Positions 27,022 to 33,072 of a stretch of 37,527 nucleotides of DNA are shown here, piece by piece. How positions within the stretch are numbered: the first letter of the stretch is position 1; each line of letters opens with the position of its first letter. Position numbers and translations under genes: made by a program. The notes beneath the pieces were generated by a model. The model made no database searches. It was not told where the DNA came from and saw only the letters and a list, made by a program, of their open reading frames with translations. This DNA comes from Gemmatimonadota bacterium (GTDB lineage: Bacteria > Latescibacterota > UBA2968). The stretch is from assembly GCA_026706845.1 (NCBI GenBank), contig JAPOXY010000082.1, forward strand, positions 79,779 to 117,305, read 5' to 3'.

Positions 27022-27825
27022 TTACATAGAACCCCTTGTTTGATACGCATCTGCCCTTGCTTGCCGCGCCGTCTGTTTATTTTGTTGCCAATATGCATCA
27101 ACGGGCTTATCGCGCGTCTGGGGTGGCGTCCTGAACGTAAGCGTATAAGCCCTCCGCGGAACATCTGTGCGATTTGGCTCTGCGTAGTGAAGCATATAAC
27201 ACGCGTGAAGCGAAGCCCCGCCAGCCGCAACAGGACAGGGAACCGCCCGCGCGGCATACTGTTCGGGATCATCAACCTCAAGACCGTGAATACGCGGATC
27301 CCGGTTAATACTGTGATGCGGCAAAACATCGAGCTTGTGGCTACCCGGAATAAACTGCAAACAGCCGGATTCCACCGTCGCATCGTCCAGCGGCATCCAA
27401 AAATTTACGCCCTTGTACGCCATGGTAGGATCGTGATACGCCTGATCCTGATGCCACGGCGTTGCCGCACCAATACGCGGCGGCTTGTAAATCATGTGTT
27501 CGCCATTCCTATCGAGCATATCAGAACCCAGCAACTGCCCCGCAATCGCCCGCGCATTGGCCAGATAGAGCGTATCTTTCAGTTCGGGCGCAAAACGGCT
27601 GGGACCGAGCATTTGCGGAAGGCGTGGTTGATCATCCTCATCTGTACCCGCCAGATCAAATTGACTCCCCTGATCCCAACCCGTGCGATCCGAAAAAAGT
27701 CGATCGTAAATCTCCCGAAGCTGTTCCACCTCCTCCTCTGTCGTAATCGCATTGAGAACGAGGAACCCATCCTCGTGAAATGAATGAACTTGTTCCTGTG
27801 AAAGAGAAATTGTTGGCTCTGGCAT
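27022..27825 (-). CDS. phytanoyl-CoA dioxygenase (PhyH) family protein
   Basis: 267 residues from ATG 27825; GAGGAGG lies seven bases upstream, and the frame open to 27870 lacks a site. Iron ligands are H125-Q-D127 (WHQDQAYHD) and H213 (MLHYAEPNRTDVPRRA), with the arginine in the PRRA segment. MIYKPPRIGAATPWHQD and GCLQFIPGSHK are characteristic. It is the first gene of a leftward operon with the epimerase. The 153 bases to the divergent sulfatase start contain the promoters of both units. Confidence 0.9.
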   Translation of the reverse strand: MPEPTISLSQEQVHSFHEDGFLVLNAITTEEEVEQLREIYDRLFSDRTGWDQGSQFDLAGTDEDDQPRLPQMLGPSRFAPELKDTLYLANARAIAGQLLGSDMLDRNGEHMIYKPPRIGAATPWHQDQAYHDPTMAYKGVNFWMPLDDATVESGCLQFIPGSHKLDVLPHHSINRDPRIHGLEVDDPEQYAARAVPCPVAAGGASLHACYMLHYAEPNRTDVPRRAYTLTFRTPPQTRDKPVDAYWQQNKQTARQARADAYQTRGSM

Positions 27826-31599: not shown

Positions 31600-31630
31600 A
31601 AAAAAAGCCCCGGATTCCGGGGCTTTTTTT
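31600..31630. terminator. strong rho-independent terminator
   Basis: GCCCCGG (31607-31613), a 3-base loop and CCGGGGC (31617-31623), flanked by seven A and seven T. It lies six bases after the PhyH stop and insulates the sigma-factor gene from read-through. Confidence 0.92.
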
Positions 31631-31707
31631 ATGTCCATACGACACTTTCAGGATACAGACTCGTCTTTTATTAAAACACGCGTGTATTGATTTCTCGTGG
31701 AGCATTC

Positions 31708-33072
31708 GTGGAACAGATTGAAGACAGCGCGCTCATCGCTCAAATTCTGGACGGCGACCGCAAAGCATTCGCAGTTCTGGTGCAACGCTATTCGCGATAT
31801 GTGTATGCCCAAATTGCCCAATCCATACGATTGGTTGATGACGTAGAAGACCTGGTCCAAATCGTATTTATCAAAGTGTACGAAAATCTGCATCAACTTC
31901 GCAAACCCGACCGATTTAGACCCTGGTTACACAGCATCATACGCAACGCCGTCAACTCCCATCATCGCCGTCGAGCCGTGCAATTGCGACTGGAAGAAAC
32001 ATTTTATCCAGAACCCGCAACGCACACTGAAGAAGAAATCAAACACGTTGTACGAGCCGCGCTACGCATCCTATCGGCTGAACATCGCCAGGTAATCGCC
32101 CATCACTATTTCAAAGGGTATTCTTATGCGGAAACAGCCGACCTCCTGAACCTCACGGTAGAAACCGTGCGCGGGCGTCTGAGGCGTGCGCGTCTCAAAT
32201 TGAAAGGAGAATTGCACAAAATGTCGGATATTCAAATGCAAACAACTGAACTGGACCGCGCGGACATGGACGCGCTCAAAAAAGTAATCGGTTTTGTAAG
32301 CGACGATGAAAAACGCCCGATCTTGCAGGGCGTATGTCTCGACACAGACGGTCGCGCAACTGCGACCAACGGACATATCATGATCATTCGCACATTGAAA
32401 AGCCTCTCGGAATTGGCCGCACCCATTGTCCTCGGACCCTGGCCAGACATCCAACTGCCCGAACAAGCCACATTGAAAATTGCGGAAGAAACCGCAGAAA
32501 TCCAGAGCAACGGCACAACCCTTCAGGTCCCCTTGATCGAAGGTCCTTATGTTAAATACGAACAGGTCATCCCGCAAGAAGATCCCACAATGCGAGTTTC
32601 TATCTCCTCGGCTCTTCTGGCACAAGCACTGAACTTACTACAAGAATTCATGGAAGCGCGGCATCCAGAGTCGGACCTGTGGCAATATCGCCCCCGGGTA
32701 GATCTACACCTCTCGCCACTGACCCAAACCATAACTTTTCTCACCTCACGGGACACGGGATATACCCGAGAGGACAATGGCAAATTCCAATATCTCCACG
32801 ACGCGAAAGATGACGACTCGCCAGGAGGCATTGCAGATTGGATATTTCAAGTGCCCCTCAATGCCAAATTTGAAACACCATCAGAAGACACACTCAGGGT
32901 CGCCGTGAACTTCGCGTATCTCAAAAAAATCCTGCATGCGCTGGACATTGAAGACAGCGATGAAATCACAATAGAATTTAGAGAACAGAGCAAAGCGATC
33001 ATCTTGCGCACATCCCTGAATGCGGAATGGCTGGCATTGCTAATGCCATTGAGACTGAAGTCAAAGGATTAA
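31708..33072 (+). CDS. ECF-type sigma-70 factor fused to a DNA polymerase III beta-clamp-like domain
   Basis: 454 residues from GTG 31708, which has GGAG five bases upstream; a TTG at 31687 is weaker. Residues about 20-87 are sigma region 2 (FAVLVQRYSRYVYAQIAQ, DDVEDLVQIVFIKVYENL, WLHSIIRNAVN). Residues about 120-168 are region 4 (LSAEHRQVIAHHYFKGYSYAETADLLNLTVETVRGRLRRAR in part). From about residue 185 the sequence follows the sliding clamp: RPILQGV (203-209), ATNGH (219-223), an internal alpha/beta repeat, YLKKILHALD, and MPLRL (446-450), the usual C-terminal clamp motif. The clamp part is about 270 residues against about 366 for DnaN. AAAGGAG at 32203-32209 precedes an in-frame ATG at 32221, so the clamp part might also be made alone. 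No anti-sigma gene is adjacent. Confidence 0.82.
   Translation: MEQIEDSALIAQILDGDRKAFAVLVQRYSRYVYAQIAQSIRLVDDVEDLVQIVFIKVYENLHQLRKPDRFRPWLHSIIRNAVNSHHRRRAVQLRLEETFYPEPATHTEEEIKHVVRAALRILSAEHRQVIAHHYFKGYSYAETADLLNLTVETVRGRLRRARLKLKGELHKMSDIQMQTTELDRADMDALKKVIGFVSDDEKRPILQGVCLDTDGRATATNGHIMIIRTLKSLSELAAPIVLGPWPDIQLPEQATLKIAEETAEIQSNGTTLQVPLIEGPYVKYEQVIPQEDPTMRVSISSALLAQALNLLQEFMEARHPESDLWQYRPRVDLHLSPLTQTITFLTSRDTGYTREDNGKFQYLHDAKDDDSPGGIADWIFQVPLNAKFETPSEDTLRVAVNFAYLKKILHALDIEDSDEITIEFREQSKAIILRTSLNAEWLALLMPLRLKSKD

Follow-up and report, generated by a model that had tools for sequence, protein, structure and literature searches.

An ECF sigma factor gene of Latescibacterota that carries in the same frame a tail homologous to domains 2 and 3 of the sliding clamp DnaN

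The window, meaning the whole stretch of 37,527 nucleotides analysed in this study, belongs to contig C82 of a Latescibacterota genome (G000), and carries at 31708..33072 (+) a gene for a protein of 454 aa, in which an ECF sigma factor is joined to homologues of DnaN domains 2 and 3. The frame begins with GTG and is open over 454 codons up to its stop, in agreement with the uninterrupted frame read by the first-pass annotation; a GGAG is located about 7 nt upstream of the GTG, and translation might instead start at an in-frame TTG (31687). The gene is flanked by a PhyH gene upstream and by a convergent gene of the dihydrodipicolinate-synthase family. At the end of the PhyH gene there is an intrinsic-terminator-like hairpin, GCCCCGG-ATT-CCGGGGC plus a T-run (31607..31623, +), which was read from the sequence and was not listed by the consensus terminator scan; since this hairpin appears to close the upstream gene, the fusion gene probably forms a transcription unit of its own. 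Genes for PhyH-type dioxygenases and sulfatases are numerous between positions 27022 and 36237 of the window.

The N-terminal portion of about 170 residues is a regular ECF sigma factor, of which residues 20-168 match the ECF superfamily model with E 6.7e-27. Within the span of about residues 20-168 given by the first-pass annotation, sigma-70 region 2 is found at 31777..31977 (+; residues 24-90; Pfam PF04542, E 1e-12) and sigma-70 region 4 at 32050..32202 (+; residues 115-165; Pfam PF08281, E 2.4e-12). The same two regions are present, and regions 1 and 3 are absent, in 20 of 20 fusion members. The core-RNAP contact motif at residues 45-48 of region 2 reads DVED, DAED or AAED across the fusions, with E47 and D48 invariant in the alignment; a DAED motif in sigma2 is described as a contact to core RNAP (PMC8103513).

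Throughout the fusion family region 4 is followed by a conserved folded extension. In the window protein this extension starts with the homologue of DnaN domain 2 (32233..32586, +; about residues 176-293), which carries RPILQGV, ATNGH and IEGPYVKYEQVIP and is without the second inner helix, and continues with the homologue of DnaN domain 3 (32587..33060, +; about residues 294-451), which ends in the cleft motif MPLRL and contains two inserts, one being RHPES..WQYRP and the other lying at about residues 350-378. With the single tail as query, the Pfam models for DnaN stayed below their cut-offs (DNA_pol3_beta_2 at 196-237, E 0.016; DNA_pol3_beta_3 at 394-449, E 0.014), and phmmer with the single fusion protein matched the Clostridioides clamp 7ybd (E 7e-5). 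When a profile was made from fusion tails only and run against the PDB, all 42 of the 42 matches were beta clamps (best E 7.6e-12), and hhalign of the fusion-tail profile with Latescibacterota DnaN gave 99.3% (E 8.3e-21) over DnaN positions 152-378 of 380. These profile matches together with the span of the hhalign alignment show that the match to DnaN is real and that it is limited to domains 2 and 3. We thus confirmed that one gene encodes an ECF sigma factor plus a DnaN-homologous tail of about 280 residues. The clamp-like tail proposed in the first-pass annotation therefore stands in its homology to DnaN but not in its extent, because it comprises two domains; a whole clamp in the tail is ruled out, domain 1 being missing from the aligned span. 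By alignment, the sigma part is located where domain 1 of DnaN would be, and the tail is domains 2 and 3 alone. A separate canonical DnaN gene is also present in the source genome.

Structure prediction agrees well with this assignment. AlphaFold2 modelled the tail with pLDDT 78.5 and pTM 0.79 from an alignment of 17 rows (the window protein, its close homologues, and clamps encoded on viral contigs), and when this model was compared with the PDB by Foldseek, the best 50 matches listed, with E as low as 2e-14 and TMq of about 0.7, were all beta clamps, the outcome that the first-pass annotation had expected of such a check. As DnaN rows were included in its alignment, the tail model is supporting but non-independent evidence. 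When AlphaFold2 was run on the full-length protein from an alignment limited to close fusions and ECFs, block means were mostly 65-93 for the sigma part outside the linker; the clamp half, modelled there without DnaN rows, had pLDDT below 50 and its fold was not obtained.

The fusion was detected in 23 of the 64 Latescibacterota genomes searched, in four families of one class, with tail identities among the fusions down to about 32%. Two of the 23 are incomplete, the copy in G010 being cut by a contig end and that in G019 carrying an internal TAG. The below-threshold Pfam matches of the single tail could be taken to mean that a frame or assembly error has joined two genes, or that the similarity to DnaN is a chance one. 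The same single-frame architecture is, however, repeated in 20 full-length sequences, each of a different genome and that of the window among them, and the single-contig assemblies G007, G037 and G046 are represented; moreover, purifying selection acts on the two halves (median dN/dS 0.14-0.23 for the sigma half and 0.16-0.26 for the clamp half), and chance similarity is at odds with a set of PDB profile matches made up solely of beta clamps. A frame or assembly error is ruled out by these homologues, and we give the artefact as a whole a negligible probability; the joining in cis of a sigma factor and a clamp-derived domain, as first annotated for this single gene, proved to be a conserved architecture, and the search for homologues gave no case of two separate genes joined by a frame error.

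Both the sigma half and the clamp half are monophyletic, with matching subgroups. Because each half forms one clade with the same subgroups, a single fusion event is the simplest reading, and the fusions of all four families are apparently of one origin as far as these trees indicate. The gene is dispensable, since it is truncated in G001 and was not found in G008. In G001 (L146, G001:C101:5000-11000) a deletion of about 1.1 kb, with flanks about 95% identical, has removed region 4 and the tail, leaving a stub of 96 codons that keeps sigma region 2 and then runs into a stop; no fusion was found in G008, which belongs to the same genus and is assembled in a single contig. Scans of 40, 168 and 396 genomes from three other phyla (those to which Caldithrix, Raymondbacteria and an Acidobacteria MAG belong) gave no fusion at strict E-values; as the scan of genome contigs covers close relatives only, the fusion may occur in further groups.

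The residues of the tail were numbered by alignment to E. coli beta, and the fusion positions were assigned the roles in the peptide cleft and the ring interface that the corresponding residues have in E. coli beta. At the aligned positions, the tail retains the DnaN form both of the cleft in which peptides are bound, between domains 2 and 3, and of the C-terminal MPxR. No variation is seen among the 21 fusions at the cleft residues R152, G174, N320, M362, P363 and R365, while positions L155, L177, V247, Y323 and V360 show mostly conservative variation, about as in Latescibacterota DnaN. T172 and H175 are more variable in the fusions, H175 being variable in DnaN too, and in the fusions of the window's own genus R176 is replaced by I, so that some cleft positions differ there. 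By the same comparison, the half clamp could still bind clamp-binding peptides.

A tail with the homology and the fold of DnaN might still act as a ring or a C-shaped clamp on DNA, for instance as a PCNA- or gp45-like trimer of two-domain units, and thereby tether RNA polymerase for promoter scanning. The precedent is gp45 of phage T4, a trimer of two-domain subunits that encircles DNA and tethers the RNA polymerase carrying gp55 (PMC7892883, PMC9690074), and the first-pass annotation had put forward the same parallel. The features needed for such a ring are largely gone from the fusions. A protomer of DnaN has three clamp domains, of which the fusions have domains 2 and 3 alone, and the head-to-tail interface between domains 1 and 3 is not kept: domain 1 is absent and the interface residues R269, I272, L273 and E298 are replaced or interrupted (L or E at R269, a polar or charged residue at L273 in almost every fusion, and R at E298 in 21 of 21). 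A fusion-specific insertion, RHP..W.Y.P, is placed at this ring face of domain 3. Domain 2 has lost its second inner helix, of whose 15 residues 10 are left, with no helix there in the AlphaFold2 model. The basic inner surface with which a clamp faces DNA is likewise missing: the inner helices carry a net charge of -1 to -9 in all 21 fusions but of +1 to +5 in Latescibacterota DnaN. From the changed ring interface, the lost inner helix and the acidic DNA-facing helices, the tail is unlikely to encircle or hold DNA in the fashion of a clamp, and we regard a ring that tethers RNA polymerase as improbable.

T4 late transcription (gp45, gp55 and gp33) is similar to the fusion in that a clamp-type protein acts together with a sigma-family factor, and gp55 itself carries a clamp-binding motif; it differs in using separate proteins and a DNA-encircling ring, whereas the fusion is a cis arrangement with an apparently non-ring, DnaN-derived half clamp. 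Similar in domain content are the stand-alone phage mini-clamps of 211-238 aa found on viral contigs (L071-L075, L077 and L078; L076 is a full-length clamp), which also consist of domain 2 and a short domain 3 with an MPxR-type end and no domain 1, but are free proteins without a sigma domain.

If the retained cleft does bind a peptide, a candidate ligand is present within the same protein. Directly after sigma region 2, a Q-[LIV]-x-[LF] motif that resembles a clamp-binding motif is found in 20 of the 20 fusions aligned over the sigma part; in the window protein it is the QLRL of the sigma2-sigma4 linker (31981..31992, +; residues 92-95). Such a motif is carried anywhere in the linker by 2 of 42 ECF paralogues of Latescibacterota. 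The clamp-binding consensus is QL[S/D]LF, with QxxLF as a looser form (PMC12309361). The agreement with this consensus is good in family f4, in which the motif reads QLNLL or QLDLL, but poor in the other families, which have E in fifth place, as in the QLRLEE of the window protein; 13 of the 20 fusions are thus weak in this respect for want of a hydrophobic fifth residue. Since the fusions share ancestry, the conservation of the linker motif is a lead and not proof.

The fusion gene is preceded by a promoter-like element of the ECF type, CGACACTTT-N13-CGTCT (31640..31666, +). A counterpart is found before the fusion gene in five other genera, in the form GG[AG]TAC[TC]T..-N13/14-C[AG]TC or CAACTAT: genus groups g6, g7 and g9 have GGATACTTT-N13-C[AG]TC, and g13 and g12 have GGATACCTT or GGGTACTTC, followed by CAACTAT. 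In 150 dinucleotide shuffles of one sequence per genus, with or without g1, no common 9-mer reached the quality of GGATACTTT. In the source genome the only match to the strict g1 pattern is the one before the fusion gene. The conservation of an ECF-type element in front of its own gene in six genera suggests that the fusion sigma factor is autoregulated. With the strict promoter patterns, 24 sites were detected in 18 genomes, of which 18 precede a fusion gene, a count that is partly circular because the patterns were derived from fusion promoters. Outside the fusion genes there are six sites. A second copy of the g13 element was found in two genomes (L205, G044:C2:40472; L210, G041:C25:56302), about 150-230 nt before a gene for a large outer-membrane-like protein (DUF5916-like, annotated by eye), and another site, in a single genome, is located 77 nt before a MacB/FtsX-like permease gene; the remaining ones looked like chance. 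The members of a genus group share their gene neighbours, and so in part do those of one family, but the families differ from each other; no neighbour is common to all of them, and no evident anti-sigma factor or replication gene adjoins the fusion gene, most of the neighbours having been judged by eye.

An autoregulatory promoter would permit a rapid rise of the protein, and a cleft retained without ring or DNA features would suit a replisome decoy, in which clamp-binding proteins are sequestered from DnaN by the half clamp, so that induction slows replication or redirects repair and control of transcription is secondary. The sigma half, as judged from its dN/dS, is constrained at least as strongly as the clamp half, and sigma function therefore does not look secondary; we consider such a decoy unlikely.

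ECF sigma factors with C-terminal extensions are a known kind (PMC8999054, PMC8103513), and the fusion shares with them a sigma2-sigma4 core joined to a soluble domain, no anti-sigma factor seen adjoining, and an extension thought to gate sigma activity; it differs in that the extension is two DnaN domains. The extensions of ECF42 and ECF57 are thought to work via protein contacts (PMC8999054). A clamp extension of an ECF is not mentioned in the passages of the two reviews that were searched, and the literature searched, which was mostly outside the subscription journals, gave no account of one, in line with the first-pass annotation, to which no ECF with a beta-clamp extension was known either. 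The tail might be an intramolecular regulatory domain that acts on sigma2 and sigma4 and senses a small ligand or stress, its clamp ancestry being merely a scaffold that has no clamp-binding partner. PMC8999054 describes such use of C-terminal domains by ECF41, with its SnoaL-like tails, and by related groups, and the conserved RHP..W.Y.P as well as the second insertion of domain 3, both specific to the fusions, could contact sigma or a ligand. A mere scaffold, however, would need neither the cleft nor the MPxR, and both are conserved in four families even though the ring function seems to be lost; we hold the ligand-sensing domain to be possible but rather doubtful.

Taken at the level of sequence comparison, the fusion is conserved, has lost the ring and DNA features and has conserved the cleft, and the retained cleft appears to be best fitted by the regulatory sensor that the first-pass annotation had listed as an alternative. 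Our preferred reading, which we put somewhat short of an even chance, is that of an orphan, autoregulated ECF sigma factor that is gated by the half clamp as a protein-interaction switch. On this reading, sigma2 and sigma4 would bind core RNA polymerase and the ECF promoter, that of the gene itself included, and the half clamp, instead of encircling DNA, would read peptides and thereby gate the sigma factor. The gate may be set by proteins with clamp-binding motifs, such as polymerases, the clamp loader, and mismatch-repair and translesion proteins, the free amount of which would report the state of replication or repair; or else the Q-phi-x-phi motif of the protein's own linker may dock in the cleft, to be freed when a protein with a clamp-binding motif competes for it. 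More tentatively, we propose a one-component regulator, the half clamp of which binds the clamp-binding motifs of replication and repair proteins and thereby switches a small autoregulated set of genes. If this is true, a cellular bacterium would have the state of replication linked in cis to the activity of a sigma factor. The clamps of T4 activate transcription via separate proteins, and the fusion would offer a ready-made test of whether replication and repair proteins can set the activity of a sigma factor. The half clamp would also illustrate that a ring protein is reducible to a protein-interaction module.

Fusions of DnaN to another type of transcription regulator have reportedly been seen, namely with a MerR-type regulator; our plasmid and phage searches for this MerR-type-DnaN fusion gave as matches only DnaN or unannotated proteins. 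The fusion adds a new class of ECF extension, in a phylum with many unusual fusions of ECF factors. Further ECF fusions of Latescibacterota likewise have a sigma core with a large C-terminal module, among them interaction modules (ankyrin, HEAT, FliG_C) that agree with the preferred reading, but the modules are different and the sigma parts fall on separate branches of the ECF tree. The source genome encodes, in a frame of 759 codons, an ECF with ankyrin repeats and an ATP-synthase alpha/beta-type domain (L181, G000:C135:59500-64500; ATP-synt_ab, E 1.6e-14), and an ECF fused to a 3-keto-disaccharide hydrolase domain (L179, G000:C85). In other genomes an ECF is followed by HEAT repeats (L163, G012:C32), by ankyrin repeats (L160, G013:C124), or by FliG C-terminal-type domains (L149, G013:C244; FliG_C, E 5.6e-32, in three stretches); the sigma part of the last of these is the closest non-clamp ECF to the fusions among the ten genomes searched.
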